Both the position numbers and the translations under genes were made by a program. Shown here piece after piece: positions 1,954 to 23,383 of a stretch of DNA of 64,000 nucleotides. Origin of the DNA: Bosea sp. 29B (GTDB lineage: Bacteria > Pseudomonadota > Alphaproteobacteria > Rhizobiales > Beijerinckiaceae); the NCBI RefSeq assembly GCF_902506165.1, contig NZ_LR733817.1:2773936-2837935 (forward strand), given 5' to 3'. Each line of letters begins with the position of its first letter. The stretch's first letter is position 1. The notes beneath the pieces are model-generated. The model saw nothing but the letters and a program-made list of their open reading frames with translations. It did not search any database and was not told the origin of the DNA.

Positions 1954-2856
1954 CTAAGCGTGGCTTAGATCGAACTCGCCCGGCGCATCTTTGATCGGCA
2001 CCGCGAACCATTCATCTTCATCGACGCCAAAGAGCCCGTGCGACACTGGCACTGTCGCCAGCGGGTTATGGACTACGTGCATGGCCAGAGGCTTTCCATG
2101 GCGCCGATCGGCGGCACAGCCGAATACAGCTGACACACCGGCGTAGGCCGGATCCAGGAACGGCGTCGTCGGAATTGCAGTGTTGTTGTGATTGATGATG
2201 GAGAAGCGCAGTGAAATAGAGGCGCCCTCGATTTTACTGGTCTCGCGATTAATCGCATACTGAAGTGGTCCCACTGGGAAAACGCTTTCAACGCCAAACG
2301 GCATTCGTGTGATTCCGCGCGCACCGGGAGTCCATCCCAACTGGCAACCGTTGATCGCAATGATGTAGCCGTCCGTCGGCAAGACGGTTCCCTTTTCGAG
2401 ATACTTTTTCAGCTTGCTGACTTTCGCGTCGAAGGCGGTCGTCCAGCGCAGCAAGATCTGTTCGTGGGGGAACGTACCGACCTTGCATTCGTTCGGCTTC
2501 GGACCCTCCAACCAATCGGCGGGGAGGTTTTTTGGCTCAGGACATACAGCCTCGATCCAAATCCTCACGCCATTATGTTCAAGGCACAGGTCCGGGCCAT
2601 CGCCGACGCAGGTCAGCTCGTGACCTTGATCATGCAGATGCTGCGCAAGCAGAAGCTCCCACGTGCGTTGCGCAAGGCTCGACGGTTTCCCGTTGGTGAA
2701 TTCAGCGACAAAATCTTCGTTGGGGAGACCAAGGCGCGCGTAGGTCTCCCAAAGCCCTGTGAGTTCGGCCAGCGACCAAGGGCTATTCTTAAATTGGTGC
2801 GCAAGGAAAGTACGGACGCGCGCATCAAATCGAGTGAGTTTTGTTCGTGCGATCAT
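1954..2856 (-). CDS. Hypothetical protein downstream of prlF-yhaV, possible PD-(D/E)XK-like fold
   Basis: Predicted 300 residues from ATG 2856, 20 nt after the yhaV stop with AAGGA upstream. A longer frame back to 2952 overlaps yhaV and is unlikely. No family is recognised with certainty. Residues about 70-115 read as a helix (QRTWELLLAQHLHDQG) followed by GDGPDLCLEHNGVRIWIEAV, resembling the helix-strand-Asp-strand-Glu core of PD-(D/E)XK nucleases. The usual lysine is not in its place, so this is inference only. Its position as third gene behind an antitoxin-toxin pair suggests co-transcription with it and a role in the same defence or maintenance module. Confidence 0.7.
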   Translation of the reverse strand: MIARTKLTRFDARVRTFLAHQFKNSPWSLAELTGLWETYARLGLPNEDFVAEFTNGKPSSLAQRTWELLLAQHLHDQGHELTCVGDGPDLCLEHNGVRIWIEAVCPEPKNLPADWLEGPKPNECKVGTFPHEQILLRWTTAFDAKVSKLKKYLEKGTVLPTDGYIIAINGCQLGWTPGARGITRMPFGVESVFPVGPLQYAINRETSKIEGASISLRFSIINHNNTAIPTTPFLDPAYAGVSAVFGCAADRRHGKPLAMHVVHNPLATVPVSHGLFGVDEDEWFAVPIKDAPGEFDLSHA

Positions 2857-2876
2857 CTCATGCCGCTTTCCTTGAA

Positions 2877-3380
2877 TTAACGCTTGCGGGCAACTCGCGT
2901 GAGCCGACTTGCTGCGCCGGTATCTGACGCGGCGGCGAGAAGCTCCTTCCACGTATCGGGCGGATTCCCGCGATCCAGCATCCTCCGAAATACGGCGTAG
3001 GCGTCGTTGGCACTCTCATAGGCCCGTAGCGTCGAGTCGTCGTTCACCCACGCCAGCACGATGATCATGGAACTCGCCGATTGCTGATAGCGAAAGAAGA
3101 GCCGGAATTGCTGCAGGAATTTCGCGCGGAACCAGTGCTTGTAGTCGTCGCCGAGCGTGCCGCCCTGCCGATAGGCGTCGCGAGTCGGGTCACTCGGGAT
3201 ATCCTCGAACGCCACCTTCAAGACCGCCGCGAGGAGCTTTGCGGCGCGCTTCTTTTTGTACCCCTTGGGATCCTTCTCGCGCGCCTTCTCGACCGCCGCG
3301 GTCATCGCCTCGAGCTGGTCGAGAAACAGCGGATGCGCATAGATCGTCCAACCGTTAACCTCGACGGTGTCGTCGTTCAC
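2877..3380 (-). CDS. yhaV: YhaV-family toxin of a type II toxin-antitoxin system
   Basis: A 167-residue protein with the YhaV pattern: N-terminal NGWTIYAHPLFLDQL, a Lys-rich helix (KGYKKKRAAKLLAAV), then YRQGGTLGDDYKHWFRAKF and a central RLFFRY strand. YhaV is a ribosome-associated endoribonuclease toxin neutralised by PrlF. The start is a GTG at 3380 overlapping the prlF stop by four bases (GTGA), so translation is coupled and the antitoxin comes first. Length matches the family. It probably stabilises the replicon or acts in abortive infection; the first is established for such pairs, the second is inferred from the neighbouring OLD/UvrD genes. Confidence 0.92.
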   Translation of the reverse strand: MNDDTVEVNGWTIYAHPLFLDQLEAMTAAVEKAREKDPKGYKKKRAAKLLAAVLKVAFEDIPSDPTRDAYRQGGTLGDDYKHWFRAKFLQQFRLFFRYQQSASSMIIVLAWVNDDSTLRAYESANDAYAVFRRMLDRGNPPDTWKELLAAASDTGAASRLTRVARKR

Positions 3381-3712
3381 GCCTCATCTTCCGGCAGAGC
3401 AGCGTCGAGATCGACCTGGACGCCCTTGACGAGGGATTTGCCGCGCGCGACCAGCGACTTCGGCACCGGCCGAATTCGCGATGGCTCGTTTGCCATGTCA
3501 CGCGCCAGGAATGCGAGGAACGTGCCGATCACCGGATCGCCGTCATCCGCCGACTTCTTCGCGATCACGACGGTGCCGTTCGCCAGCCCGCGAAACACCA
3601 CCTGGTCGCGCTTGCCAAGCGCGAGCATCTTGCGGATGGCTGCGGGCACTGTCGTCTGTCCGCGCTCCGTGATGGTCGCGGGGATTTCGAGGATTTCGGC
3701 GGTCTTGGCCAT
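3377..3712 (-). CDS. prlF: PrlF antitoxin, AbrB/SpoVT-type DNA-binding domain
   Basis: 111 residues. Residues 10-50 form a swapped-hairpin AbrB domain (PATITERGQTTVPAAIRKML, then QVVFRGLANGTVVI); the C-terminal half would wrap YhaV. The start ATG at 3712 is preceded by AAGGAG. PrlF antitoxins repress their own operon, and a fitting promoter with a dyad between -35 and -10 lies just upstream. The gene diverges from the gajA-like gene, so one operator region could influence both directions. Confidence 0.92.
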   Translation of the reverse strand: MAKTAEILEIPATITERGQTTVPAAIRKMLALGKRDQVVFRGLANGTVVIAKKSADDGDPVIGTFLAFLARDMANEPSRIRPVPKSLVARGKSLVKGVQVDLDAALPEDEA

Positions 3713-3741
3713 AGCCAGCTCCTTGCGTCGTCACGCCATCC

Positions 3742-3769
3742 CATGTAATGCATTTGCATTGTAAGTCAA
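3742..3769 (-). promoter_or_regulatory. Predicted prlF-yhaV promoter with operator dyad in the spacer
   Basis: Reading the minus strand: TTGACT (3769-3764), 16 bp, TACATG (3747-3742), followed within 30 bp by the prlF start. The spacer holds a perfect dyad, AATGCA-2 bp-TGCATT (3747-3760). A dyad between -35 and -10 suits autorepression by the AbrB-type antitoxin. Prediction from sequence only. Confidence 0.5.
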
Positions 3770-3873
3770 GCTCAGCCGAGTCGTCCGCAGTGACACGGGA
3801 GTTTGGACCGGGGCGGCTGGATCCACCGATTCCGTGGGCGCTCCCGGGCGGCGAACGACCTGGGGGAAGCGGT

Positions 3874-5592
3874 ATGGCGCTGGTCCGCGTGCTTGAGATC
3901 GAAAACTTTCGAGCGGTCAAAAGCCTTCGTTGGCTGCCGGGAGCGGGGATAAATTGCCTGATCGGGCCGGGCGACAGCGGTAAGTCCACCATCCTTGATG
4001 CCATCGATCTTTGTCTCGGCGCTCGGCGGTCGCTCTCTTTCACTGACGCAGACTTTCACGCTCTCGATTTCAGCCATCCCATCCGCATTGCCCTGACTCT
4101 CGGCGCTCTGGATGACCCCCTAAAGAACCTCGACGCATACGGTGACTTCCTCGTGGGCTTCGATGTGGCTACCGGGGCGGTGGAACCAGAGCCCGGCGCT
4201 GGCCTCGAAACCGCCCTGACGCTGCAACTCACCGTCCAGGACGACCTCGAGCCGGAATGGACGCTCGTCTCACCTCGCGCGCAGGCTGCTGGTCGGACCC
4301 GCAACCTCAACTGGGCCGATCGCACGCGCATCGCACCCGCTAGGCTTGGCGCTACCAGCGACGCGCATCTGACGTGGCGACGCGGATCGGTGCTGACAAA
4401 GCTCACCGATGGCAAGACCGACGCATCAAAGGAGCTGACGCGGGCGGCACGTGAGATGCGCGACACCTTCGACCAAAAGGAGCTCAAGGAGCTTGAGGAG
4501 CCGCTCAAGATCGTCAAGGCGGCTGCGGGGGACATGGGCGTGCCCGTCGGCGCCGCCGTACAGGCGTTGATCGATGCCGGCTCGGTCACCTTTACGGGCG
4601 GGACCATTTCACTCCATGACGAGGAAGGGGTGCCGCTACGCGCGCTCGGTCTTGGTTCGTCGCGCCTGCTCATCGCCGCCTTGCAACGGAAGGCGGCGGA
4701 GAACGTCACCACGTTTTTGATCGACGAGCTCGAATACGGCCTCGAACCACACCGCATCATACGCCTGCTCGGCGCTCTGGGCGCGAAGGAGGAGAATGCG
4801 CCGTTGCAGGTCTTTGCGACGAGCCACTCGCCGATTACCGTCGCCGAACTGTCCGCACACCAGCTTTACATCGTACGCGAGAACGGCGGGCGACATACCG
4901 TCACCCGCGCGAGCGATGCTGGGAATGTGCAGGGCACGATCCGCGCCCACGCCCACGCCCTGCTCGCATCGTCGATTGTGGTGTGCGAGGGCGGAAGCGA
5001 AGTCGGTCTGATGCGTGGTCTGGACCAATACTTCACCGCGAGCGGTGAGACGTCGCTGTCGGCCTGCGGCGCGACTTTGGTCAACGGCAACGGCGATGAA
5101 ACCTTCAGCCGCGCGATCGCATTGCAGTCCCTCGGATACCGGACCGCGATCCTGAGAGACAGCGACAAACCTGCTCCAGCAGCGGCCGAGGCAGCTTTTA
5201 TCGCTGGCGACGGCACCATCTTCGCATGGGGCGGCGGACGTGCGCTCGAACAGGAGCTGTTCGCCGCGCTGCCGGACGGTCCTGTGAGCGAGCTACTCGA
5301 GCTCGCTATCGAGACGAAGGATCGCGCGTTGATCGAAGCGCATATCAAGACGATCTCCAGGGGCGCGAAGGCGCTCGGCGATTTGGAGACGGAAGCACTG
5401 ATAGACGGCCTCTCTCCCGATAGTCGGGCTGTTTTGGGGAATGCAGCAGCGCGTTTTGGATGGCTGAAGACCATCAGCACGATGGAGACGGCGGGTCGGA
5501 CGATCGTTGGCCCCTGCTACAGCAAGGCCGACGCCAGCCTCACCAGCGTCATGGACGGCGTTCTGGACTGGGTCGAAGATGGCAGCCGCTGA
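3874..5592 (+). CDS. gajA: OLD-family ATPase/TOPRIM endonuclease, GajA-like
   Basis: 572 residues from ATG 3874 (GGGGGA upstream). Domain order: an ABC/SMC-type ATPase with Walker A GPGDSGKST (31-39), signature LGLGSSRLLIAAL (about 256-268), Walker B FLIDELEYGLEP (about 280) and H-loop ATSHSP (about 314). A TOPRIM nuclease follows, with VVCEGGSEVGLMRGL (about 368), LRDSDKP (about 426) and EQELFAALP (about 459). This is a class 2 OLD protein: the gene overlaps a UvrD-like helicase gene by 14 nt. Size and order match GajA of Gabija, a nucleotide-sensing DNA-nicking anti-phage complex. Orthology is inferred; other OLD-UvrD pairs exist. An upstream in-frame extension to 3748 is open but would run into the divergent prlF promoter. 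Confidence 0.8.
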   Translation: MALVRVLEIENFRAVKSLRWLPGAGINCLIGPGDSGKSTILDAIDLCLGARRSLSFTDADFHALDFSHPIRIALTLGALDDPLKNLDAYGDFLVGFDVATGAVEPEPGAGLETALTLQLTVQDDLEPEWTLVSPRAQAAGRTRNLNWADRTRIAPARLGATSDAHLTWRRGSVLTKLTDGKTDASKELTRAAREMRDTFDQKELKELEEPLKIVKAAAGDMGVPVGAAVQALIDAGSVTFTGGTISLHDEEGVPLRALGLGSSRLLIAALQRKAAENVTTFLIDELEYGLEPHRIIRLLGALGAKEENAPLQVFATSHSPITVAELSAHQLYIVRENGGRHTVTRASDAGNVQGTIRAHAHALLASSIVVCEGGSEVGLMRGLDQYFTASGETSLSACGATLVNGNGDETFSRAIALQSLGYRTAILRDSDKPAPAAAEAAFIAGDGTIFAWGGGRALEQELFAALPDGPVSELLELAIETKDRALIEAHIKTISRGAKALGDLETEALIDGLSPDSRAVLGNAAARFGWLKTISTMETAGRTIVGPCYSKADASLTSVMDGVLDWVEDGSR

Positions 5593-6997
5593 AATCGACC
5601 TGCGCTCGATAAACCGCGGGCTGGTGATAGCGCCTGCGGGCTGCGGCAAGACCCAGCTCATCACCGATGCTCTCGCGCGGCACGCCGGGTCAAAGCCGAT
5701 CTTGGTGCTGACGCACACCAACGCAGGGGTAGCGGCGCTCCGCGGCCGTCTCGAGAGGGCTGGCGTGAAGCCGAGCGCCTACCGCGCCACAACACTCGAC
5801 GGCTTTGCGATCAGGCTGATTTCGACGTTTCCGCAACGCGCGGGACACGATCCTCGTATCGTCAACGGCTCGCGGCCGAATTACGAAGCGATCCGCGATA
5901 CCGCAACGCGGCTCGTCGCTGCTGGACATCTGAATGACATCCTCGCTGCGAGCTTCGCACACCTGTTCGTCGACGAATACCAAGACTGTTCGATCCGCCA
6001 GCACTCCCTTGTTACCTGGCTGGCACAGAGCCTACCCACTGCCATCGTTGGAGATCCCTTTCAGTCGATATTTGGATTCGGTGGCGATCCGTTGGCCGAC
6101 TGGCAGGCGGACGTGGTGCCGTTTTTTCCGATTGTGGCAGAACTCGTGACCCCTTGGCGGTGGATCAACGCGGGGGCGCATGACTTGGGAAATTGGCTGC
6201 TGGCTATTCGGCCCGATCTAGCGACGGGCAAGCCGATCGACCTTCGGACCGCGGCGAGCGGCGTTGAGTGGGTTCAGCTCGATGGCCTACGGGACGATTC
6301 GCTGCGGCAAGCGGCGGCCGCTGTTCACGCACCTGGCGAGACGAAGGTCTTGATTATCGGCGACAGTACCGACCCGCGCGGACAGCGCCGCTTTGCCAGG
6401 CAGGTCGAGGGAGCGGTGACTGTGGAGGCCGTTGACCTGCGCGATCTCACTGATTTCGGCAGCGCGCTGGATCTCGCCAGACCTGACGCGCTCTCCGTCG
6501 TCGCCGATTTCGCGGAGAACTTGATGAGCGCCTTTTCCGCAGACGACCTCGTGCGGTCGGTGGCGGCGGCGAACGCCGGAAGACTCGGCCGTGCCCTTTC
6601 CGACATCGAGCAGGCGGGTGCGAGATTCGAAACGTCGCGGTCGCTCGCGGAGGTCGCCCATCTCCTCGCCGCCATCAATCGCGCGGGCGGCGTCCGATGC
6701 TACCGCCCCGCGGTGCTAGCGGCCGCGCAACGGGCTCTCCAACTTGCGGGCTCGGCCGGCGGGCCGTCGTTCCGAGACGCGACTGTCACGATACGGGAAC
6801 AGTCCAGGCTCATTGGCCGGCCTCTTGCCAGGCGTTCCGTCGGAAGCACCCTGTTGCTGAAAGGTCTCGAAGCCGACATCTCGGTTGTCCTCAATGCCGG
6901 TGCACTCAACGCGCGCAATCTCTACGTCGCGATGACACGCGGCTCACGCCGGGTGCTTGTCTGCACTCCGAAACCGATACTGAATCCGCCCTGGTGA
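5579..6997 (+). CDS. gajB: UvrD/Rep-like superfamily 1 helicase, GajB-like
   Basis: 472 residues from ATG 5579, inside the end of the gajA-like gene (14-nt overlap, translational coupling). Superfamily 1 motifs in order: Walker A APAGCGKT (18-25), an early THTNAGVAALR segment (motif Ia), Walker B VDEYQD (about 130), motif III GDPFQSIFGF (about 158), a KGLEAD segment and C-terminal motif VI LYVAMTRGSRR (about 448). The length fits GajB, which binds DNA ends and works with GajA. It ends two bases before the stop of the convergent AddA-like gene, so the two operons meet with no terminator space. Confidence 0.8.
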   Translation: MAAAEIDLRSINRGLVIAPAGCGKTQLITDALARHAGSKPILVLTHTNAGVAALRGRLERAGVKPSAYRATTLDGFAIRLISTFPQRAGHDPRIVNGSRPNYEAIRDTATRLVAAGHLNDILAASFAHLFVDEYQDCSIRQHSLVTWLAQSLPTAIVGDPFQSIFGFGGDPLADWQADVVPFFPIVAELVTPWRWINAGAHDLGNWLLAIRPDLATGKPIDLRTAASGVEWVQLDGLRDDSLRQAAAAVHAPGETKVLIIGDSTDPRGQRRFARQVEGAVTVEAVDLRDLTDFGSALDLARPDALSVVADFAENLMSAFSADDLVRSVAAANAGRLGRALSDIEQAGARFETSRSLAEVAHLLAAINRAGGVRCYRPAVLAAAQRALQLAGSAGGPSFRDATVTIREQSRLIGRPLARRSVGSTLLLKGLEADISVVLNAGALNARNLYVAMTRGSRRVLVCTPKPILNPPW

Positions 6998-6999
6998 CG

Positions 7000-9900
7000 C
7001 TACATGGGTTCGATCCAGGATACTTGGCCTGCGGTCATGTAAACGATGGCGCCCCGTTGCGCATTCGTGACGCGAAGGTAGTCGCGCAGCTGCGCTGCGT
7101 GCGCGCCATGCGCCGCCGCGGTCGGATTCACGTCCGACTTCCAGTCGATGACGAGCGCAATCCGTTCCCCCTCGATCGCGGCCGCGTCTGCGCGCCCGGC
7201 GAGGTAGTGCGGCGGATTTGCCGCCCAAAGCGGAATCTCAGGAACGAGTTGCCCGAGAAAGGGCGCGAGTTCGGGGAGAGCCAAAGTTCGCAGGGCCGTC
7301 TCCGCCAATTCGAGCGCCTCGGGTCCTCCTGCGTCCCTTTCGTTGCGGACGTTCGATTTCAGTTGGACGAGCAGCTCGGCCGCGCGCGCTGCTACCTGGT
7401 CTCGGAACGACCCGAGCTCGCCGGTGAGGAGTTCTTCCATAAGCTTGTGCAGGATCGTGCCGCGCAGCGCGCCCGCCCCAGCTATTTCCGGTAGCGCATG
7501 AGACGCGTCGTCGACAACGAACGCGTCCACGATCTCAGCGCTGCGATCCGCGTCGCGTTCGCTTGGGCGGTCCCATATGATCGGCGGTGAAGCATCTGCC
7601 AACCTCACCCCTTCAGCCACGAATACGGTCTCGGTCTGATCATTAGCGACGGACTGCACAACGCTCGGGACGGGCTCAGACAGCATGTCAGCCCGGATCT
7701 CGGGAAGTTCCTTTTGCCCGAGATTCATCACCCTTGACCATGAGCGTGAGGGTGCGCCCGGCAGCTCGGGGATCACCAGCAAATCGCGGGCGCGCGTCGT
7801 CGCGACATACCAAAGCCGCTCGCGCTGCCGTGCCTCGCGAAACTCCTCCTCTTCGCGGGCTGCCGCAAGTGCGGGCGGTTCGATGCCTCCGACGATCCAG
7901 TGGATCGTGTCGTCGGATTGCCGATAGACAAACTGGTCCTGGGGCTTGAAGCGGGTCGATGAGTTCACCGTGATGACGACGGGCCATTCGAGACCCTTGG
8001 CGCTGTGCATAGTGACGATCTCTACCGAGTCCTCGGACGCATCGACCCTTCCTTCCGGATGCCGGCGCTTACGCTGCCATCCGCGTTGGAGATCGAGCGC
8101 GAAGGCGCGGAGACCAGCGACGTTGTAGGGCCTGGCGAGTTCAACGATAGCGTCAAGGTTCGCGAGCGCGCGCGCGTTTCGCTGACCGTGCCGGGCTGCC
8201 ATGATCACTCTTAGGTTAAGGCGCTCGATCGCGAAGGCGACGAGCTGCATCGGCGTGAGTTCGGCGGCGAGGCGATGAAGAGCCTGAAGCTTTACCAGCG
8301 TATCCTTCGCGACGGGATGGGTCACCTCGTCTGGCTGTGTCCGCAGTTGGAAACGCCGACGGCCGTCCTGATCGGGAGAGAGCGCCGCCGTGATATCAAG
8401 AAGGTCCTCGTCACGCAGACCGACGACCGGGCCTCGCATGAACGCACCGAAGGCCAGCGTATCCAGTGGATCGGCAATTGCGCGAATGAGAACCAGGACG
8501 TCCTGAAGCTCCTGCCGCCGGAATAGCGCATGGCCTGCTTGCGAGGCCACCGCGATGCGCCGCCCTTCAAGGGCGCGCTCGTAGCGCCAAAGATCCGTAT
8601 GCGTCGGCGCAAGCAATGCGATGTCGCCTGCGCGCAAGTACCGCTCCGTCCCGTCCGGTCGGCTGATCTTCAGGGCGCCGATCAGGCGCGTGCACAGCTC
8701 GGCGACGGCGTGCGCTTCTGCTTCTCGCTGTTCCTCGGCGTTCGCGTCACGTTGAACGTTGATTGTCAGCTTCGCGGCCGCCGCGAAAGGCAATGGCGGC
8801 AGTTCGAGGGTCGGCGCGAGCGGTACGAAGCCCGGCTGGCCTGCTTTCTCGAGAACGTCCTGGAAAACGCGGTTCACGTGGGCGATAATTTCTTGGCGCG
8901 ACCTGAAATTCGCGGTGACCGCAAGCAGGCAGCCATTTTTTGCCTTCGCAATGACGGACTTGGCGAGCGCGTAGGACTCTACGTCAGCGCCACGAAAGCG
9001 ATAAATCGCCTGTTTTGGGTCGCCAACCAGGAACAGCGCCCCCGGCCGCAAGACGGCGCTGCTCCAAGTCTCGGACTGCGAGTGCGCGGCTATACAAAAA
9101 ACGATTTCCGCCTGCACAGGGTCAGTGTCCTGGAATTCATCGACCAGTAGGTACGCGTAGCGGTCGGCGAGCCAGGCGCGAATATCAGCATTCTCGCAGA
9201 TCAGCGCTCGTGCCTGTCGCAGCAGGTCATCGAAGTCGAGGACCGCCGCCTCGCGCTTGCGTCGATCGTAGGCGTCGATCACCCCGCTCAGATGCGCAGC
9301 CAGTTCATGCACGAGGCTTTGCGCAATGGCGCCAATCAGTGTCTGGTAAGCCGATCGAACCGTTTCGAAGTGTTCGGCTGCTTCCTGTCCGCGTCGCCGC
9401 CCGTCTGCTTCGCCGAGCGCCTGCCTCCAGACGCGCATCCTGTCGTAGGCCAGCAGGTCGATGCTTTTTTGCCGCATCATGCTGATGCGCGGCGGCTGGG
9501 TCAGGCGCCACAGCGCAGAAAATCCGGCATGCGTGTGATCGCCCTCGAAGAACGCAGCAAGGCGCTCGAGATCTCTGATGAGATCGGCTGTCCAGGTCTC
9601 TCCGGGTCCCGCGGCGTGCCAGCGAGAAAATGCCGTGACGGCGTCCGCGAAAATGCGGTCCGGCCGAGTTGAGAAATCCGGGGCTGGCACGGTGGCGTTG
9701 CGATGCTTTCGCCGGAGGTCGGCAAGCTCGCGGATCCGTTCAACCACGCCCAGTGGATCGTCCTTTGCAAGAACTGCAACCGGGCCGGCCTGTTCGTCGC
9801 CGCGCGCCAGCATTTCCTTCAGCCAAGCCGCAAGCACCTCATCAAAGACGGCATCGGCGATTGTCTCGTCGACCACGCGGGAACCTGGGTCTAGGGCGGC

Positions 9901-10299
9901 GTCGATCCCGTGCGAACGAAGGATGCTTTGACAAAAGCCGTGGATAGTCGTTGCCGTGATCTCTCCGATGCGCGGGGCGGCCGAATCGAGCTGCGCACGC
10001 ATCGCTTCGCCTAAGGGAAGCGAGAGGATCCCCGAGAGTGCGGGGGGCAGCCGGCCATTGCGGAGCTCGTCGATGGTCCAGCGTATACGCGCCTCAAGCT
10101 CGCTCGCCGCGGGCTCGGTGAAGGTGATCGCCGCGATCTTTGCAGGATCAATTCCGCTCGCGATCATCATCGCGACGCGGGCGGCCATCAGCGACGTCTT
10201 GCCGGTGCCAGCCGCTGCCTCGACCAGCATGTTAGATTCGAAATCGGTGAGCGCCCGCCTGCGGGCGTCGAAGTCGGGCACACTCAAGGGCTGCTCCAA
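7000..10299 (-). CDS. AddA/RecB-like helicase-nuclease subunit
   Basis: 1099 residues. UvrD-type helicase with Walker A AAAGTGKTS (28-36), motif II LLVDEFQDTDP (about 386), motif III GDPKQAIYRFRGAD, motif V HSAKGLEWPV (about 765) and motif VI YVATTRARDLL (about 835). The C-terminal end carries a RecB-type nuclease: GRADAAAI, VIDWKSD (about 1053) and LRDYL. AddA with AddB processes double-strand ends and degrades linear DNA. The start overlaps the AddB-like gene by 16 nt. Housekeeping addAB is usually one chromosomal locus; a copy beside an OLD/UvrD pair and a toxin-antitoxin operon looks like an accessory, defence-linked version. That reading is inference, and this could be a plasmid-borne recombination pair. 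Confidence 0.82.
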   Translation of the reverse strand: MEQPLSVPDFDARRRALTDFESNMLVEAAAGTGKTSLMAARVAMMIASGIDPAKIAAITFTEPAASELEARIRWTIDELRNGRLPPALSGILSLPLGEAMRAQLDSAAPRIGEITATTIHGFCQSILRSHGIDAALDPGSRVVDETIADAVFDEVLAAWLKEMLARGDEQAGPVAVLAKDDPLGVVERIRELADLRRKHRNATVPAPDFSTRPDRIFADAVTAFSRWHAAGPGETWTADLIRDLERLAAFFEGDHTHAGFSALWRLTQPPRISMMRQKSIDLLAYDRMRVWRQALGEADGRRRGQEAAEHFETVRSAYQTLIGAIAQSLVHELAAHLSGVIDAYDRRKREAAVLDFDDLLRQARALICENADIRAWLADRYAYLLVDEFQDTDPVQAEIVFCIAAHSQSETWSSAVLRPGALFLVGDPKQAIYRFRGADVESYALAKSVIAKAKNGCLLAVTANFRSRQEIIAHVNRVFQDVLEKAGQPGFVPLAPTLELPPLPFAAAAKLTINVQRDANAEEQREAEAHAVAELCTRLIGALKISRPDGTERYLRAGDIALLAPTHTDLWRYERALEGRRIAVASQAGHALFRRQELQDVLVLIRAIADPLDTLAFGAFMRGPVVGLRDEDLLDITAALSPDQDGRRRFQLRTQPDEVTHPVAKDTLVKLQALHRLAAELTPMQLVAFAIERLNLRVIMAARHGQRNARALANLDAIVELARPYNVAGLRAFALDLQRGWQRKRRHPEGRVDASEDSVEIVTMHSAKGLEWPVVITVNSSTRFKPQDQFVYRQSDDTIHWIVGGIEPPALAAAREEEEFREARQRERLWYVATTRARDLLVIPELPGAPSRSWSRVMNLGQKELPEIRADMLSEPVPSVVQSVANDQTETVFVAEGVRLADASPPIIWDRPSERDADRSAEIVDAFVVDDASHALPEIAGAGALRGTILHKLMEELLTGELGSFRDQVAARAAELLVQLKSNVRNERDAGGPEALELAETALRTLALPELAPFLGQLVPEIPLWAANPPHYLAGRADAAAIEGERIALVIDWKSDVNPTAAAHGAHAAQLRDYLRVTNAQRGAIVYMTAGQVSWIEPM

Positions 10300-12896
10300 A
10301 GCTTGTCGAGAGCGCCGTTCGCCTGCGCAAACGAACGACGCTTCACACGACGGTACGAGTCCAAGTCCGCCGGGAGGGCAATGGAGAGCGGGTCGAAGAA
10401 CAGTGGTGTCAGTCCGGGCGCGATCTCGCCACTGCGTTGCAGGTGAGCGCCCGCCGCCGTGAACGCGACGGCCTGGTCAATGGCCTTCCTGAGCTCCTCG
10501 TTTGTCAGACTTAGCGTGCGCGCAGGATCGTGTTTGAGGTATGTTAGCTGTGAGCTCACGCTGCGAAACTCTGGAAGCAGGGAGCGCACCGCAAGGGCGT
10601 AGAAGACGCGCTGAAGTTCAGCACCGCGATCGAACACGACCGGCTTTTTTCGCTCAGGCGCTGTTCCGACCTTATAGTCGGTGATTATCGCCGCGCCGCG
10701 CGCCGCATCTTCGTCGAGTCGATCAATCCTCCCCCGGAAGCAAACGCCGGTCTGCCCGATCGGGACGGGTGCGAGTGTGGTCCACGGGTGAGGCACGTCG
10801 CCTGGCTCGCCGAAAGCAAGCTCCGTCCAGGTCAGGCCGCGCTGTTCGCCCAGAGCTTCTGCGAGGCCTCGCAGCGCGCGCTCGCGAGCTATCGCTATTG
10901 TATGACCCCAGAGCAGACCGGGCGGAACGGCCCTGGTGATCGGCCAGGTGTCCGCAAGGCGCGCCGCCTCTCGATCCAGAGCGATCCCGATCTCGTCGGC
11001 GTTTCGAGGGACGCCGTCGCGCAGCACCCCTCCGATGAGGGAGTGAACGAGTTCGCCGAATGCACGATGGTCGAGCGCGAGCGGCTGAGGGTCCAGGTTA
11101 GGCTCTCGCCAGTGAAGCGCGTATTCCCAGACGAACCCCAGGGGATCGCAGAGAAGCCGGTGGAGAGACGTCGTGGATTGAACTTCCGCGAGCGCATCAA
11201 CGATAAGCGGGTGGTCGGGCCGGACCCGACCGTCGTGCGCTGTGTGCTGCTCGCTGTCCCACCATGCCCGCCAGCAGGCACGACTTGCGCGCACCTGCGG
11301 ATCCTTCCCGGCGTCGGTCGGTCGGGCATAGAGACGATCGCTCTCGCTGAACGCGTGTGCGGGTATCGCGCTACGCCCCACGACGCGCTCGCGGTCCTTC
11401 GGCCACATTGTACTGGCAGCCTGCAGGGAGCCCGTCGCACTCCTGTAGGCGCGTGAAAGTGTATGACTCCTCGATTGGCCGACGATGATGTCATGCATCG
11501 CCTGGTCACTTTCGGCGGCTGCTGCAGACGGCAGTCGGACGTGTCCGAGCAGGTGTTGCGGTATCAGCGGGTTTTCGCTTGATCGTCTTGGCCATGCGTT
11601 CGCATCTAATCCGATAAGGCGAACGTGCGCGCGGGGAGCCGCGGCGACGTGTCGGGCAGGTCCCCATACGATCGCGTTTCCTGGGTCGCGTCCGTCGGCC
11701 ACGCGCAGTGCCTGCAAGGAAAGCTCGATGGCTTGTGCGGGCGCCATACGCAAAGCATCGAGCCATAAGGTGAGCGCCGGCCCCTTCAAGAGACGGCGTC
11801 CGACCACCTCGGCCGCCGCAATGCCGCCGGCCAAGTCATCCACAATCGGTAATAATACCCGTTCCGCGAGATCGCCGTTTGCCCGTTCGCCTCGCGCTTG
11901 CTCGAGAGCGTGCCGCCAAAGCCGTGGGGTTGTCAGCGCAGCGCTTCGCCGCAAGCCTTTGGCCCAGTCGCCGGGCAGGCTCTCCTTGGCGGGGCTACGC
12001 GGGAGACGGGCAAACAGGAACCTCACGCGCTCTTGCGACAGTCCACGCAACAGGATGTCCGCGAGGGAAGCACAGGCTTGCCCTTCCCGGGTCGCCAGCG
12101 CCGGAATTCCGTGTGTGAAGTGCACGGGAAGCCCGGCCTCACGCGCGAGAACCAAAAACGCGTCGTCCCATGCCGCTGGCGAAGCGGCCGAGATGGCGAT
12201 CTCATCGGGAGAGGCTTTTCCGGCCGTCACAAGCGCACGTGCCCAACGCAAGGCCTCCCTCACTTCACTTCGCGGATCGGCGCAGAGATCGGCGGAGAGA
12301 AGCGAAGCTGCACCGGAGGAGCGTGTCTCAATCACCCCGGCGAACCAGGTGCGCCCGCTGTGTTGTGATGCAATCCATCGCACGGGCACGACATCGCAGA
12401 GCGCCTGAATGAGCGGGCGCCAAACAGCTTTGATATCGGGAACGTCTTGAACAGTGAGGGCGCCGACTAACTTCGCGGCAAACGGAAGTCGCTCCAGGGC
12501 TGCTTTAACCAGATCGGGAGGTGCTAGCATTCCGGGCGGCAGCGCACTTCGCACGCGGCGCTCGAGCAACGTGAAGTCTCTGAGGCGAGCATTGTCGGGC
12601 AACGAGGCCGGGACCTCCATGTCCCACCATTCTCGAAGCGCAGACAGCACTGCCACCGGCATCCCAGGGAGCTGGGAGACCTTGTCGATGTCCTCGTATC
12701 CGCCGGCGTCGAGCGCCTGCCTTATGGCCGGATACAGGATTTCTTGCGTTGCCGGCGTGATAAAACCGCCCGCGAGCCGTGCGGCGAGAAGGGGGAGCGT
12801 CACAATCTGCCGACCGGTAGCCCGTTCGCGCGCGGCGTTGAGGCGCCGCATTCGCAACGCCAAGGGCCCATCGACAACCTCGGTATGTATCTGCAT
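10284..12896 (-). CDS. AddB-like PD-(D/E)XK nuclease subunit
   Basis: 870 residues, first gene of a two-gene unit with the AddA-like gene. The N-terminal two thirds resemble an inactivated helicase as in AddB (no Walker A seen), with IVWGPARHVAAAPRAHVRLIG and NPLIPQHLLG in the middle. The C-terminal third is a RecB-like nuclease: HRLLCDPLGFVWEYALHW, AFGELVHSLIGG, GRIDRLDED (about 720), IITDYKVG (about 738) and ELQRVFYAL (about 760), giving the D...DYK...Q signature. Only one of the Fe-S cysteines of AddB is obvious. Both subunits thus appear to keep a nuclease centre, as in true AddAB. The start at 12896 is chosen as the longest plausible ATG. Confidence 0.78.
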   Translation of the reverse strand: MQIHTEVVDGPLALRMRRLNAARERATGRQIVTLPLLAARLAGGFITPATQEILYPAIRQALDAGGYEDIDKVSQLPGMPVAVLSALREWWDMEVPASLPDNARLRDFTLLERRVRSALPPGMLAPPDLVKAALERLPFAAKLVGALTVQDVPDIKAVWRPLIQALCDVVPVRWIASQHSGRTWFAGVIETRSSGAASLLSADLCADPRSEVREALRWARALVTAGKASPDEIAISAASPAAWDDAFLVLAREAGLPVHFTHGIPALATREGQACASLADILLRGLSQERVRFLFARLPRSPAKESLPGDWAKGLRRSAALTTPRLWRHALEQARGERANGDLAERVLLPIVDDLAGGIAAAEVVGRRLLKGPALTLWLDALRMAPAQAIELSLQALRVADGRDPGNAIVWGPARHVAAAPRAHVRLIGLDANAWPRRSSENPLIPQHLLGHVRLPSAAAAESDQAMHDIIVGQSRSHTLSRAYRSATGSLQAASTMWPKDRERVVGRSAIPAHAFSESDRLYARPTDAGKDPQVRASRACWRAWWDSEQHTAHDGRVRPDHPLIVDALAEVQSTTSLHRLLCDPLGFVWEYALHWREPNLDPQPLALDHRAFGELVHSLIGGVLRDGVPRNADEIGIALDREAARLADTWPITRAVPPGLLWGHTIAIARERALRGLAEALGEQRGLTWTELAFGEPGDVPHPWTTLAPVPIGQTGVCFRGRIDRLDEDAARGAAIITDYKVGTAPERKKPVVFDRGAELQRVFYALAVRSLLPEFRSVSSQLTYLKHDPARTLSLTNEELRKAIDQAVAFTAAGAHLQRSGEIAPGLTPLFFDPLSIALPADLDSYRRVKRRSFAQANGALDKLWSSP

Positions 12897-13060
12897 CCAG
12901 CGCCCCCTTTGCCGCGCACTTCGCCGCTTATTGCTCTTCCCTGCCCCGTGCTCTGTTCGAATAGCTACAGTATCGGACTCGCCGACACGACGGCATCCCG
13001 TAGTGGCAATAGGTAACCGTAAGCTCTCCTTCTATGGCGACCTGTCCGCTCTATGAGGAG

Positions 13061-13936
13061 CTAGAGTGTGGTGGTCGATCGCGCTCGCACGGCTCTCTCT
13101 ATACCCTCTACAAAACCTTTGATCAGATCGGCTGTGTCCTGAACGAACGTCTTGGTGAAGACGACTAGTTCGTTTCCGTCCTTGTCGAAGCCGTTCCGGT
13201 GAACACAGTCGTGACGCAGCATGACCGCCTTGAAGAGGCGCGCTCTGTCATTAGCCAAACTCAAGATACGAATACCGAGCGCGATATTGTAGAGAACGTC
13301 CACCTTGGCAAGATTGTGATACTGGATCGAGCGAAGGTGCTCGCGAACATTTCTTTCGACCAAAGCGAGGTCCTTCGAAATTTCGGCGAGCGTGAACTTC
13401 TCCTTCGCAAGGTCTTCATCCTTGCTGAGCAGGCGCTGAAAGGCGCCTGCGTCAGCCGCGATTTCGTTTATCAATCTGTCGGCGAGATAGGCTTCCATCG
13501 CAGTGATCTGATGCGAGAAGATCATGCGATTGACCAAGTGACGGCCGCTATGACTCCCGTGGTCCGCGAGCAGGTCGCCGGTATGGTGATAGGAGCTCAT
13601 GAAAATCGTAAACGGATCATCTGGGACAGAGTAATCGACCCACTCATCCGGCTCCGGCTTACCATGCTCGAGCCCGTAGTCGAAATCTTCGATCACCTTA
13701 TTGCGCCCGGCATTTGTCACGCGGTGGTTCTCGATACCAATCGGATATTCCCAAAGACCCCAGGATATCTCGCCTAGTTCGGCGTGTTCGATGGTTGCTT
13801 CATAGTGGATTTCTGATCCCATCTGGCGCTCGTCGCCGCCGACAGCATCCCAGTCCAGCGCTTCGCTCTCGATCTCGTGGATTTCGCCCGTCGCATGGTG
13901 CTGGATGCGGGCTGTTCCCTTGCAATAGACTTGCAT
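13061..13936 (-). CDS. Hypothetical protein with C-terminal HEPN-like helical domain
   Basis: 291 residues from ATG 13936, preceded by a strong AGGGGGAGG. Two parts are visible. Residues 1-100 are beta-rich, with MQVYCKGTARIQHHATGEI and YEATIEHAELGEISWGLWEY. The C-terminal part is helical and contains RHDCVHRNG (about 240), an R-x4-H motif of HEPN type, followed by a long helix. HEPN domains are often RNases or structural partners in toxin and defence systems; here the assignment rests on this motif and helicity alone. It is co-directional with the AddB-like gene, 164 bp upstream of it, and may form part of the same module. A longer frame to 14014 overlaps the next gene and is less likely. 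Confidence 0.7.
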   Translation of the reverse strand: MQVYCKGTARIQHHATGEIHEIESEALDWDAVGGDERQMGSEIHYEATIEHAELGEISWGLWEYPIGIENHRVTNAGRNKVIEDFDYGLEHGKPEPDEWVDYSVPDDPFTIFMSSYHHTGDLLADHGSHSGRHLVNRMIFSHQITAMEAYLADRLINEIAADAGAFQRLLSKDEDLAKEKFTLAEISKDLALVERNVREHLRSIQYHNLAKVDVLYNIALGIRILSLANDRARLFKAVMLRHDCVHRNGFDKDGNELVVFTKTFVQDTADLIKGFVEGIERAVRARSTTTL

Positions 13937-15309: not shown

Positions 15310-16476
15310 GTGACATCGATATCCCTGCTCTCGGCCGAGACCGAAACGCGACGGGCCCTGCAGCTCGACGCCCTTGCCGGCATTCTGCCGATGGAGCGCC
15401 GCGACAAGCTCGCCACCCTCCTAACCGACGACGACGTCGCGACGCTTCGACACCTGGCCAAAGAAGGCATGGGTGAGAACTCGTTGCGCGCGCTCGCTTC
15501 GGATCTGGCCTATCTCGAGGCCTGGTCGATCGCAGGGACAGGCTCACCCCTGCCCTGGCCAGCGCCGGAAGCTCTGGCACTGAAGTTCGTCGCCCATCAC
15601 CTCTGGGATCCGGCGCGGCGCGCCGAGGATTCTTCGCATGGCATGCCGGCCGACGTGGATGAAGCTCTCCGCGCCGGTGACCATCTACGTTCTGACGGAC
15701 CCCATGCGAGCTCGACCGTCAAACGGCGCCTGGCTCACTGGGCGACGCTGCATCGCTGGAAGGGGCTTGAGAGCCCGCTCGGGACGCCGGCGATCCGCAC
15801 CAGCGTGCGTCTGGCGGTCCGGGCCAGTGCTCGGCCCCGCCGCCGCAAGAGCAAGCGCGCTGTGACGCGCGACATTCTGGACCGGCTAATCGCGACCTGC
15901 CAGACCGACCGCCTCGCCGATACGCGCGATCTTGCCATCCTGCTCGTCGCCTTCGCCTCGGGCGGACGCCGGCGCAGCGAAGTCGCGCGACTGCGGCTCG
16001 AGCAGCTCACCATTGAGGCCGATGCGCCGCTCGATCCCGATGATCCAAACTCGCCTCGCCTGCCCTGTATGGCGATCGCGCTCGGTCGAACCAAGACGAC
16101 ACAGTCCGACGAAGATGCGCGCGTGCTGCTGATCGGCGCACCGGTCGCGGCCCTGCGCGAGTGGATCGAGCGGGCTGACATCAAGAAGGGGGCAGTGTTT
16201 CGGGCAATCGACCGCTGGGAGGCCATAGATGACCGCGCGCTGACGCCACAGGCCGTCAATCTCATCCTGAAGCGCCGCTGCGCGATGGCAGGGCTCGATC
16301 CGGTCGAGTTTTCGGCTCACGGCCTGAGATCAGGCTATCTGACCGAGGCAGCCCGCAACGGCGTCGCCCTGCCCGCGGCGATGCGCCAATCGCAGCACCG
16401 GTCGGTTCAGCAGGCATCGCGGTACTATAACGATGCGGATCAGGCGCTCGGAAAGGCTGCAAGGCTGGCCATCTGA
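15310..16476 (+). CDS. Tyrosine-type site-specific recombinase/integrase
   Basis: 388 residues. The N-terminal half (about 40-170) is a SAM-like core-binding domain; the C-terminal catalytic domain has the conserved pattern: Arg in SGGRRRSEVARL (about 220), HGLRSGY (about 336, His and second Arg), QHRS (about 362) and the nucleophile Tyr in SRYYND (about 371). The full set implies an active enzyme. On repABC plasmids such enzymes can resolve multimers or mediate cointegration. The two inverted repeats in the upstream intergenic region are natural candidate substrates. The gene diverges from the DUF1612 gene. Confidence 0.92.
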   Translation: MTSISLLSAETETRRALQLDALAGILPMERRDKLATLLTDDDVATLRHLAKEGMGENSLRALASDLAYLEAWSIAGTGSPLPWPAPEALALKFVAHHLWDPARRAEDSSHGMPADVDEALRAGDHLRSDGPHASSTVKRRLAHWATLHRWKGLESPLGTPAIRTSVRLAVRASARPRRRKSKRAVTRDILDRLIATCQTDRLADTRDLAILLVAFASGGRRRSEVARLRLEQLTIEADAPLDPDDPNSPRLPCMAIALGRTKTTQSDEDARVLLIGAPVAALREWIERADIKKGAVFRAIDRWEAIDDRALTPQAVNLILKRRCAMAGLDPVEFSAHGLRSGYLTEAARNGVALPAAMRQSQHRSVQQASRYYNDADQALGKAARLAI

Positions 16477-16562
16477 GGCGCCAATCTTTCGCAAGCGGCG
16501 GCGACCAGCTGACAGATGAGTGCCAGAGCCCTCTCTCGTGCCCGCCGGGCCGGCGGAGAGGA

Positions 16563-17030
16563 TCACGCCGATGCTTTGGCGCGGGTCGTTTTTGGGCGAG
16601 GTGCCGGCTTCGGCGCGGAGACGGCCGCCGCCTTGCGACCCAGACCCATCGACTTGGCGAGCGCGGAGCGCGCTTCGGCATAGGCGGGAGCAACCATCGG
16701 GTAGTCCGCAGGCAGGCCCCACTTTACGCGATACTGTTCAGGCGTCAGGCCATAGAAGGTGTTGAGGTGACGCTTCAGGGATTTGAACTTCTTGCCGTCT
16801 TCCAGGCAGGTGATCGCATCCGGCGTCACTGACTTTCGGATCGGGACGGCTGGGATCAGAGCGGCAGGAGGAGCAGGGACCGCCTCCGAGCCAAGCCCCG
16901 CAAGCGCCGAATAGGTGCTCGCGATCAAGCCGACGAGGTCGGCCGGCTGAACGTTATTGTTCGAAACATAAGCCGAAACAATCGAGGTCGTCAGCTCAAG
17001 AAGCTCGGCATTGTCTGTGATTTCGGACAT
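16563..17030 (-). CDS. mucR: MucR/Ros-family transcriptional regulator
   Basis: 155 residues with the MucR layout: N-terminal oligomerisation region ([16 protein letters not shown]), Pro/Ala linker, then [20 protein letters not shown] and [20 protein letters not shown]. This is the zinc-finger-derived DNA-binding domain of Ros/MucR. The second cysteine and the terminal histidine are replaced (LEDG; TFY), as in several Rhizobiales homologues that fold without zinc. MucR proteins bind AT-rich promoters and silence horizontally acquired DNA, so a copy here may damp the element's own genes (inference). It converges on the integrase. Confidence 0.92.
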
Positions 17031-17199
17031 TCTGCTCTCCAGGCTGACGGAGTATTATCAGTTTTTCCTAGGCCGCCAAATTATCTCTGACACTGGCAGG
17101 GTCTACCTCATTTCGACCTGTGATAAGTAATGGTAGTGCAGAAGCGGAGCGATGATGATCTCCGGATCTACACCTTCACCAAACCAAACGAAATCCAGA

Positions 17200-17472
17200 T
17201 CAGGCGACCGTTTCGGCCAGATCCTTGGCGACCTTGAACTTGACGACCGTCTTCGCGGGTACGTCGATCATTGCGCCGGTCGAGGGATTGCGGGCCTGGC
17301 GCGCATCGCGCTTGGCGACCGTAAGCTTGCCGATACCGCCAAGTGTGACGTCGCCGCCATCTTTCAAGGCCTTCGCGGCGACCTCGGCGAGGGACGCCAT
17401 GACGGCGCCGATATCAGCCTTGGTATGGCCGGTGCCTTCGGCGACCGCTGCGATGAGTTCGTTCTTGGTCAT
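17200..17472 (-). CDS. HU-family DNA-binding protein
   Basis: 90 residues from ATG 17472. Typical HU/IHF fold: MTKNELIAAVAEGTGHTKAD, then VTLGGIGKLTVAKRDARQAR, the beta-arm tip RNPSTGAMIDVPA and VKFKVAKDL. It bends and compacts DNA and may assist the adjacent recombinase or replication origin. An upstream extension to 17562 lacks similarity and is omitted. The ~170 bp between this gene and mucR (17031-17199) holds no gene that I can see. Confidence 0.93.
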   Translation of the reverse strand: MTKNELIAAVAEGTGHTKADIGAVMASLAEVAAKALKDGGDVTLGGIGKLTVAKRDARQARNPSTGAMIDVPAKTVVKFKVAKDLAETVA

Positions 17473-17597
17473 TGGAAATCTCGCTGATTGAGGAGAAAGC
17501 GTGCTCCGAATACCTGAAACTGGCGCGAGAGCAAGCATCCGGGCGGCTGGGTCGGATCGCAATTGACGGTTCCCCTCCCCGTCCGCACAGGCCGCGG

Positions 17598-17870
17598 TCA
17601 GCGAACCCGGTAGCCGCGCGCCACCTTACGCCTCAGCCAGACGTCGAGGGATTCAGCGGCGGCAGCATGATCGGCGTGAAGATCGAGACGGCGCCGGCCG
17701 TCGGCCCCGATGCGTCCCCATTCGCGGATCAAGGCGGTGTCACCAAACAGCGTCGGTTCGATTGCCAGCACATAGGAGCGGGCCAGATTGCAGCCCTCGT
17801 CCCGGCGCTCCAGCACCAGCACCTGCAGTTTGCCCGGGGTGGTCTCGCGCACGACATCCATGCACGACAT
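17598..17870 (-). CDS. WGR domain-containing protein (copy 2)
   Basis: About 90 residues from ATG 17870 (ATG 17861 is an equal alternative; a TTG at 17903 also exists). The WGR core is clear: RSYVLAIEPTLFGDTALIREWGR read in two stretches, then helix AAAESLDVWLRRKVARGYRVR. It is paralogous to the WGR protein at 1289-1552: the cores align without gaps, and the upstream DNA also matches, including the 24-nt dyad at 17909-17932. The role is unknown; location between HU and repC suggests an element-encoded DNA-associated protein. Confidence 0.82.
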   Translation of the reverse strand: MSCMDVVRETTPGKLQVLVLERRDEGCNLARSYVLAIEPTLFGDTALIREWGRIGADGRRRLDLHADHAAAAESLDVWLRRKVARGYRVR

Positions 17871-17908
17871 CTCGCGCGCCGCGACAGGATGGGTCCAACG
17901 CAAAGCTT

Positions 17909-17932
17909 GAATCGATCAGCCCGCATTGATTC
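17909..17932 (-). repeat. Dyad element upstream of WGR gene copy 2
   Basis: Minus strand: TGAATCA, eight bases, TGATCGATTCAAG. Length and half-site spacing are identical to the element at 1599-1622; only the spacer differs. Two GANTC sites are included. Confidence 0.6.
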
Positions 17933-18168
17933 AGACCGGTGATACGTCACCCAGATCGGCACCTAGCCTGTGACTCTCCTAGAGGGCAAGCGGTGTCGGC
18001 GATATCCCCGAAGGTGCTCGTGTGAGATGCCCGAGCTACCTCTCGCATCCAGGTCCACGCCATTCTAACCAAACCAGCGGGACGGCAGGCTGTGAAACGG
18101 TCTATCGTCGTCGCGCTGTCGCCTCATCCCGACGCGCGCGCTCGCTGCAATAGCTCGAAGGCTCCCGC

Positions 18169-18402
18169 ATGAACGAAAAGTCGAAGCAGCGTATCGATGC
18201 CGATAACGCGTTTCTGAGGACGCAGACGCGATCGATGGTGCGCGATCGCATCTTGTCCGAAAGCGACACAATCGCCCAGACCCGAGACGCCAACACGGCC
18301 CGGTTGCGAGACCTGCGCCTGCAGAAGGAGACGCAAGCGCGCGAGGCTGCAGCATCAACACCGCCCAAGCCTGTTTCTCAAAAACGCCCAAAGCACGATT
18401 GA
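18169..18402 (+). CDS. Small charged hypothetical protein
   Basis: 77 residues, highly polar and probably helical (MNEKSKQRIDADNAFLRTQT, then RDRILSESDTIAQTRDANTARL read in pieces), with a Lys/Pro-rich tail. Amphipathic heptad-like spacing and the absence of hydrophobic segments suggest a small cytosolic coiled coil. It sits convergent with repC. No family is recognised; the composition looks coding rather than accidental. Confidence 0.5.
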   Translation: MNEKSKQRIDADNAFLRTQTRSMVRDRILSESDTIAQTRDANTARLRDLRLQKETQAREAAASTPPKPVSQKRPKHD

Positions 18403-18493
18403 AACGATACTATCGACCTCCTCGCCGAGCGAACCGCTCTCCAAACGACGCAGGCCCGCCAGCACGCAAGCCTGTACAGCCTGATCCATGCCG

Positions 18494-19723: not shown

Positions 19724-19826
19724 GATCCTTGCCTCGTTTAGGGCAAAGGAAATCGGCTCGCCGAAACGGCGCTGAATCTCACAAGAGACTCTTGACGGTG
19801 ATTCGTGGAAGTGCGATTCTGTGTTT

Positions 19827-19876
19827 GCTTAGGACACAGAGAAGGGCTTCCGGAACATCGTTTCGGGGGCCTTTTT
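19827..19876 (+). ncRNA. Predicted antisense incompatibility RNA (ctRNA, incA-type)
   Basis: The 163-bp repB-repC gap carries, on the strand opposite to repABC, a promoter-like TTGACG (19792-19797), 17 bp, GATTCT (19815-19820). About 25 bp after the expected start comes a 12-bp stem (19845-19856 with 19860-19871) and a T-run. repABC plasmids encode a small counter-transcribed RNA here that represses repC and sets incompatibility. The start and end given are estimates. Confidence 0.65.
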
Positions 19877-19880
19877 CTTT
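19845..19880 (+). terminator. Rho-independent terminator of the ctRNA
   Basis: A 12-bp stem including G-T pairs (GGCTTCCGGAAC pairing with GTTTCGGGGGCC), a 3-nt loop and a T-rich tail. Because it lies in the repB-repC leader it may also take part in ctRNA-mRNA pairing. Confidence 0.75.
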
Positions 19881-19886
19881 TGCGGG

Positions 19887-20876: not shown

Positions 20877-20904
20877 TCCGCCGCCTCCTCATCGGGCGCA
20901 TGCC

Positions 20905-20928
20905 GTTGAAATAGAAGCCGTTTTCAAC
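20905..20928. repeat. Inverted repeat in the repA-repB gap
   Basis: Arms GTTGAAA (20905-20911) and TTTCAAC (20922-20928) with a 10-bp spacer, between the repA stop and the repB start. It does not match the usual repABC parS consensus but is a possible RepB-binding site or a regulatory hairpin in the operon mRNA. Confidence 0.4.
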
Positions 20929-20948
20929 CGTTTTTACGGCGGTCAACA

Positions 20949-22136: not shown

Positions 22137-22158
22137 ATTTCGGATGCCAGACCAAATA

Positions 22159-23186: not shown

Positions 23187-23308
23187 CTGGGTACCCTTGG
23201 CAACGACGCCTTGCTTCACGCGCCTGATGATCCTCTTGCGATCGATGCGAACGGCCTTTGCCGCGAAGATGTGGCGATAGAGGGGCCACAACTTTGGAGC
23301 GAATCCAC

Positions 23309-23326: not shown

Positions 23327-23383
23327 TTCGATCGGAGCCCGTGTCTGATTGATTGGTGCCAGATCAACGATTCGGAGGTGGCC

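Follow-up and report, generated by a model that had tools for sequence, protein, structure and literature searches.

The closest described counterpart of the locus considered here is Gabija, a name also applied to a class 2 OLD protein encoded beside a UvrD-like helicase (PMC10568477). In Pseudomonas aeruginosa, Gabija is reported to act on linear DNA lacking RecBCD, phage end-binding proteins that exclude RecBCD are reported to sensitize phages to it, high-level Gabija is described as not viable in a recB- background, and the RecB nuclease and RecD helicase functions are credited with protecting self DNA from it (PMC12407980). A GajA relative, the Old protein of phage P2, is reported to kill recBC- cells (PMC10568477). 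The stretch analysed here, referred to as the window, comprises 64,000 nt of the 6.33 Mb genome of Bosea sp. 29B (NZ_LR733817.1, positions 2773936-2837935) and contains a gajA-gajB pair that converges on two genes resembling addA and addB. We find it evenly balanced whether this four-gene core is a mobile cassette in which a Gabija system carries an AddAB-like helicase-nuclease of its own, which would act as a licence partner of the RecBCD type. This reading is based on the conserved linkage of the converging pairs, their joint divergence, the intact catalytic motifs of the four window proteins and repeated co-location with different Gabija subfamilies. A functional partnership of GajAB and the AddAB-like pair is likely.

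The Gabija half of the core consists of gajA (3874..5592, + strand, 572 aa), encoding an OLD-type ABC ATPase with a TOPRIM nuclease, and gajB (5579..6997, + strand, 472 aa), encoding a UvrD-like helicase, the two genes overlapping by 14 nt. GajA matches the PADLOC model PDLC04168 at 734.5 bits over residues 1-568 and the Pfam family AAA_21 at 90.4 bits, and GajB matches PDLC04173 at 582.2 bits over its full length. Among solved structures, the GajA family profile finds Bacillus cereus GajA with an E value of 4e-10, in third place after 6p74 and PtuA; a PDB search with the single GajA sequence did not find the B. cereus protein. For the GajB family profile the best PDB matches are solved GajB proteins (E 3e-11). 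The Walker A and Walker B motifs, the TOPRIM glutamate and DxD and the helicase motifs are kept in the aligned rows, both linked and unlinked to an AddAB-like pair. Judged by sequence, the window pair is a Gabija system, with a GajA of intact motifs and a GajB encoded directly downstream. Gabija is further characterized by a 4:4 complex of GajA and GajB, by DNA nicking and by phage restriction, properties that the window pair would be predicted to share. It shares with described Gabija the gajA-gajB order, the protein sizes, the ABC-ATPase plus TOPRIM and UvrD motifs and an end-to-end coverage of the PADLOC models, but differs in that its GajA forms a separate subfamily, with 24-38% identity over parts of the alignment to three other Gabija GajA proteins, and in that an AddAB-like pair is attached to the cassette. 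No Gabija joined to an AddAB-like pair is described in the open-access literature that we searched, mostly at the level of titles, beginnings of abstracts and passages.

The other half lies on the minus strand. The addA-like gene (7000..10299, - strand) encodes a UvrD helicase with a PD-(D/E)XK nuclease, 1099 aa if read from the TTG at 10299. In the sequence TTGA, the stop codon of the addB-like gene shares bases with a TTG start codon of its addA-like neighbour, and 10287 is therefore the more likely start, giving a protein of probably 1095 aa. The addB-like gene (10284..12896, - strand) encodes a large protein of 870 aa that ends in a PD-(D/E)XK nuclease. As the initial annotation had it, the genes lie where it put them and the two operons converge, with 2 bp (6998..6999, from the ends of the open reading frames) separating the gajB stop codon from that of the addA-like gene (6997/7000). 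In Pfam, the AddA-like protein matches UvrD-helicase (177.2 bits), UvrD_C (72.7 bits) and, just below the cut-off of 22, PDDEXK_1 (20.8 bits); the AddB-like protein matches PDDEXK_1 at 67.1 bits. Against the housekeeping model addA_alphas, the AddA-like protein scores 236.9 bits, below the cut-off of 860.75. The AddB-like protein has no match to TIGR02786 (addB_alphas), reaches 34 bits with TIGR03623 (probable DNA repair protein; cut-off 299.6), matched no PADLOC model and found no PDB entry by sequence or by profile. Comparison with the host AddB by hhalign gave a modest profile match (probability 35.5, E 0.0004), an AddB fold of the first ~550 residues being no more than possible. What justifies the name AddB-like is therefore the nuclease domain, together with the size of the protein, its pairing and the order of the genes.

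The initial annotation would have been undermined had this pair been the only addAB of its host. A separate addAB is present at ~2.339-2.345 Mb of NZ_LR733817.1, its AddA scoring 1165.6 and its AddB 963.6 bits (cut-offs 860.75 and 486.5); with the window pair below the housekeeping cut-offs, its identity as the host's own addAB is ruled out. The pair resembles AddAB/RecBCD in its UvrD-type helicase with C-terminal PD-(D/E)XK, in an AddB-like partner that also ends in PD-(D/E)XK and in the overlapping addB-addA order, as in the host's own addAB. It differs in lying far under the alphaproteobacterial AddA cut-off, in being additional to the host addAB and in that many of its relatives are plasmid-borne and next to defence genes. 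The helicase and nuclease motifs of the AddA-like protein and the nuclease motifs of the AddB-like protein are complete in the window proteins and in the aligned rows of linked loci (rows that exclude AddA of L005-L008 and L010), except for AddA of locus L012, in which a loss of frame affects the final ~110 residues.

We assessed linkage in 24 distinct loci, the window included, that have close AddA and AddB (~55% identity or more) and sequence past AddA; they come from a pattern scan for AddB in one genome per species, which gave 17 loci, close relatives only, and from plasmid records. The set is chosen for AddB, because 16 of the 24 derive from the AddB scan and the plasmid loci were found by searching with AddB or GajA. 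Outside it are L021, where the contig ends within the pair, L063, with an AddB fragment and no AddA, and L055, with no AddB; L064, L124 and L125 duplicate L016, L013 and L020, and L017, L018, L019 and L060 are near-identical and hence non-independent. The plasmid listing, of 40 rows, leaves out four records of the GajA search at 60-80% identity, and the context of NZ_CP013572 is also outside the set. The same Gabija pair is present, in convergent orientation, in 20/24 loci; all four genes are intact in 15 of these, and the other five (L005, L022, L053, L059 and L061) have a broken gajA, a broken gajB or both. As to the four exceptions, a 3' remnant of gajB persists at the junction in L006, L010 and L058, and L012 has another Gabija there; a different Gabija is thus nearby in two of them (L010 and L012). 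Stop-to-stop spacing is 0-9 bp in the measured loci with AddB at least 70% identical to that of the window, and in L053, the most distant locus (AddB ~55%), the convergent genes overlap by 17 bp. On these comparative grounds gajA, gajB and the addA-like and addB-like genes form a conserved convergent unit, and the case for a convergent module of the two pairs, which the initial annotation had put forward as a candidate, is for this four-gene core stronger than was stated there.

Searches made from the GajA side agree with respect to close relatives. Among the plasmid matches listed, eight records carry a close GajA (67% or more), seven of which are also AddB records, and an AddA-like gene is present in all seven close-GajA plasmid records whose context was read; in L055 (NZ_CP080528), where AddB is missing, gajA is broken too. 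In three evenly drawn and partly overlapping genome samples (397 genomes of the order, 297 of the family of G396 and 298 of the window's own family), close GajA (at least 80%) and close AddB (at least 70%) coincide in four genomes, G000, G396, G573 and G582, and no other sampled genome has either. At the thresholds used, more distant AddB occurs in 11, 14 and 15 genomes of the three samples, respectively, and more distant window-type GajA in 10, 5 and 7 genomes besides the four; the two share one genome only, G426, where they lie on different contigs. Independent occurrence of the pairs, which the initial annotation had named as fatal to its proposal, is therefore not seen for close relatives and is the prevailing state for distant ones. 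For 13 loci in which neither pair is damaged, a comparison of pairwise distances between the four proteins gave r of 0.968-0.993, a level reached in 0/5000 permutations, although such co-divergence is also expected from joint vertical descent and was computed without an unlinked control gene. Correlation of this strength speaks against frequent reshuffling of the two pairs.

The AddAB-like family is found not only with the window-type Gabija. In a sister group of AddAB-like pairs with AddB 46-48% identical to that of the window (three loci placed by tree, the others by identity), a classical Gabija pair stands divergently beside addB in five of nine loci, all rhizobial (L127, L133, L136, L137 and L140), with 97-104 bp between the start codons in the four measured. 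In L133, for example, this pair scores 771.8 bits with PDLC00070 (GajA) and 802.7 bits with PDLC00117 (GajB). A sixth locus, L139, has a full-length AddAB and a gajA remnant in the divergent position. All five plasmid records with a sister-group GajA at 83% identity or more are also AddB records, and some relatives at 76% or less are not among the listed AddB records. Further Gabija types accompany the close AddAB-like pairs: in L012, from Mesorhizobium erdmanii, a PDLC00062 (902 bits)/PDLC00114 (836 bits) Gabija lies convergently behind addA (15977-19803), where relatives have the window-type Gabija, as if swapped in situ, and in L010 a PDLC00090 (799 bits)/PDLC00103 (739 bits) Gabija lies 2 kb behind addA. 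Short chance matches aside, the four GajA types share 23-38% identity over their alignable parts. A Gabija pair is also found 3.1 kb behind a 42% AddAB-like pair in L143, a locus picked because its plasmid was in both match lists. This recurrence with several Gabija subfamilies is a plain count with no chance expectation attached. Three plasmids (L056, L057 and L143) carry DNA ligase D genes no more than ~12 kb from a Gabija pair, and in L062 a Ku gene is located ~7 kb away from the module.

Thirteen distant AddAB-like loci (L024, L025, L073-L079, L132, L134, L141 and L142) showed none of these Gabija types by tblastn or annotation. The neighbours of distant pairs include a Snf2-type helicase with a type III methyltransferase (L074), DrmD with a methyltransferase (L075) and AbiE (L025 and L132). 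On a plasmid of Sulfitobacter faviae (L134:2522-12061), genes for SngB and SngC immediately precede an AddBA-like pair within a single gene run, followed by a DEAD/DEAH helicase gene, which suggests that the AddAB-like pair also joins Shango (SngABC). The resemblance lies in this order, SngB and SngC genes preceding the pair; the window module, in contrast, is without Shango genes, and the link is one locus only. In the loci examined, AddAB-like pairs thus accompany several defence systems, Gabija more often than any other. Gene sets with multiubiquitin domains were noted near AddAB-like pairs in three plasmids (L025, L142 and L053), a ThiF-family gene being named in L025 and L142.

Given the published dependence of Gabija on RecBCD, a mobile element with its own AddAB-like enzyme would therefore be favoured. 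Our working model is that the AddAB-like enzyme would load on DNA ends and do for the window Gabija what RecBCD does for that of P. aeruginosa. Ends that it had processed, such as those of self breaks, would become unattractive to GajAB, and ends from which a phage had excluded it would be attacked; bringing its own partner enzyme would make the cassette both safe and functional in hosts with a divergent AddAB. Whether this licence mechanism is correct we regard as close to a coin toss, and we take it to be the best single account of the locus. The wider proposition, that a RecBCD-type enzyme of the cassette's own marks self DNA and gives host-independent discrimination, distinct Gabija subfamilies having come together with the same AddAB-like family on at least three occasions and in different orientations, is offered more tentatively, as a possibility a little short of an even chance. 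P2 Old and retron Ec48 are comparable in that their activity is reported to be keyed to the state of RecBCD (PMC10568477, PMC12904381), but these watch the enzyme of the host, whereas the window cassette encodes a RecBCD-type enzyme itself.

The pattern of decay was tabulated for 25 loci, the 24 and L055, with near-identical loci counted apart. Both pairs are intact in 15, AddAB alone in five, GajAB alone in none and neither in five (Fisher p 0.0047 for the association; the one-directional 5/5 has p 0.031, or 0.005 on the assumption that breaks scale with gene length). The licence reading fits because decay never leaves GajAB intact alone (0/25 loci). Five Bradyrhizobium-type loci have an in-frame stop in AddA at residue 3; damage was considered and rejected, because this position precedes the likely start.

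Several observations weigh against the licence model. Three of the five loci with AddAB only lack GajA and are detectable only via AddB, and without them the one-directional count is 2/2 (P 0.12); joint decay would also yield the association, the frameshifts seen in draft assemblies could reflect errors of sequencing, and the asymmetry is small. A GajA clade of nine clusters (P0195, P0196, P0198-P0202, P0204 and P0205; 63-67% identity) branches among linked sequences, a placement that counts P0190, whose link is inferred solely from the equally long contigs of P0190 and AddB P0303. In three of the nine, the longest contigs, of 3175112, 490596 and 537697 bases, have no match to any of the 120 listed AddB, and this clade may thus carry GajAB without AddAB; a search for its context in plasmids and three genomes of the genus of G573 gave no relative closer than the linked sequences. 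In L012 an intact type-2 Gabija stands beside the AddA with the out-of-frame end, the same strain having an intact module at L011, and more distant window-type GajAB pairs lack an AddAB-like neighbour in the stretches examined. With Gabija lineages that lack such a neighbour, the licence model can therefore be at most a property of some Gabija lineages. Gabija was, moreover, not found in three of the nine loci of the 46-48% group (L023, L126 and L138), and the company of Shango and other defence genes means that the role of the AddAB-like pair may therefore not be specific to Gabija.

Other explanations place the nuclease activity, or the linkage itself, in a different light. The initial annotation had suggested that a GajA-like enzyme creates ends that the AddAB-like pair consumes, and the pair would on that account be an anti-phage exonuclease effector, degrading from its ends phage DNA that GajAB had nicked or opened. 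The intact helicase and nuclease motifs of both AddAB-like proteins and the presence of such pairs without Gabija among other defence genes on plasmids speak for an effector of this kind, which we nevertheless consider unlikely: a dedicated effector might be expected to share an operon with gajAB, but the pairs are on opposite strands; gajA-gajB in PAO1 is reported to have restricted phages without an added AddAB-like gene; and RecBCD action is described as shielding DNA from Gabija, not as completing its work (PMC12407980). The nick-and-consume mechanism is not the one best anchored in published work. That same report, through the dependence of Gabija on RecBCD antagonism, lends itself equally to a layered defence with bait, in which the AddAB-like pair degrades phage DNA itself and Gabija in turn catches those phages that block AddAB-type enzymes (PMC12407980). 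Persistence of the AddAB-like pair after loss of Gabija (L006, L010, L058 and L139) would be accounted for as well. We hold this to be rather improbable, as the literature searched, mostly at title level, yielded no anti-phage test of this AddAB-like family; the idea also overlaps the licence model and is inseparable from it by sequence.

A partnership might also be illusory, two separate defence cassettes that share plasmids or islands having become fixed side by side in one lineage. Both pairs do occur in defence-rich islands, and the distant relatives of each are usually apart, as such hitch-hiking would predict; yet the junction is held at 0-9 bp although AddB differs by up to 30% from that of the window, and the same AddAB-like family has several distinct Gabija subfamilies as neighbours at distances of a few kb or less, so that we give hitch-hiking the least credence of these alternatives and think it decidedly doubtful.

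The genes around the core are of a different nature. From left to right the window has gene X, yhaV and prlF (- strand), gajA-gajB (+ strand), the addA-like and addB-like genes, a HEPN-like gene and an RHE_PE00001-family gene (- strand), and a tyrosine recombinase gene (+ strand); all ten reading frames are open, with stop-free translations. The antitoxin PrlF (3377..3712, - strand; PF15937, 141.9 bits) and then the toxin YhaV (2877..3380, - strand; PF11663, 196.2 bits) are confirmed as a pair by Pfam scores far above cut-off, and flank the module in 5/24 loci (the window, L007, L008, L009 and L022). Gene X, 3' of yhaV (1954..2856, - strand, 300 aa), is near the module in two (the window and L022); its matches to PADLOC PD-T7-5 (7.5e-10) and PD-T7-1 (2.4e-9) are weak, it matches phrog_8571 at 67.7 bits, and it is possibly a separate small defence gene. 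HEPN ribonucleases carry the motif Rx4-6H, and in the HEPN-like protein encoded upstream of the addB-like gene (13061..13936, - strand, 291 aa), R241 and H246 form an Rx4H motif that all 37 aligned sequences, the window's included, have in common. This protein has 453 relatives at E <= 0.001. Weak matches to HEPN_RiboL-PSP (PF18735) were obtained for eight of the 37 (best E 0.026), none being listed for the window protein, which has no Pfam match above cut-off; its comparison with solved structures gave nothing usable.

A close relative of the window HEPN gene stands beside the module in the window only. The slot upstream of addB is occupied in eight other loci by a distant HEPN-like relative (29-33% identity) with cysteine pairs (e.g. 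L011:9061-9990), in L006, L007 (7077-8318), L008 and L010 by a protein of 384-430 aa, with a shorter relative in L005, in L009 (1412-5389) by a TPR-GreAB-C-PIN protein, with a relative in L063, and in L017, L019 and L060 by a 211-aa gene. HEPN or PIN genes, with RNase-type folds, have thus occupied this slot more than once, the occupants being otherwise unrelated. As PrlF-YhaV, X and the HEPN gene vary between loci, the toxin-like genes are therefore not core, and a composite of nine to ten genes, with toxin-antitoxin operon, X and HEPN gene, is rejected in favour of a core with variable neighbours.

To the right of the module, positions 18494-36093 of the window carry repABC-type replication genes, a LuxI/LuxR pair and VirB/VirD4-type conjugation genes. 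The module is perhaps carried by an integrated plasmid-like or conjugative element inside the 6.3-Mb contig. A viral origin was considered and set aside: peptide patterns found no relative of GajA or AddB in IMG/VR, and phage records had no GajA match. In a scan for promoters and terminators, signals were no commoner than chance.

The module is best seen as a variant of Gabija with an AddAB-like pair attached. The AddAB-like family is likely to be a defence component, one whose AddB-like member currently stands outside the PADLOC models. A natural cassette uniting Gabija with a RecBCD-type enzyme, together with similar pairings in other Gabija subfamilies, would provide independent evolutionary support for the link between Gabija and RecBCD.

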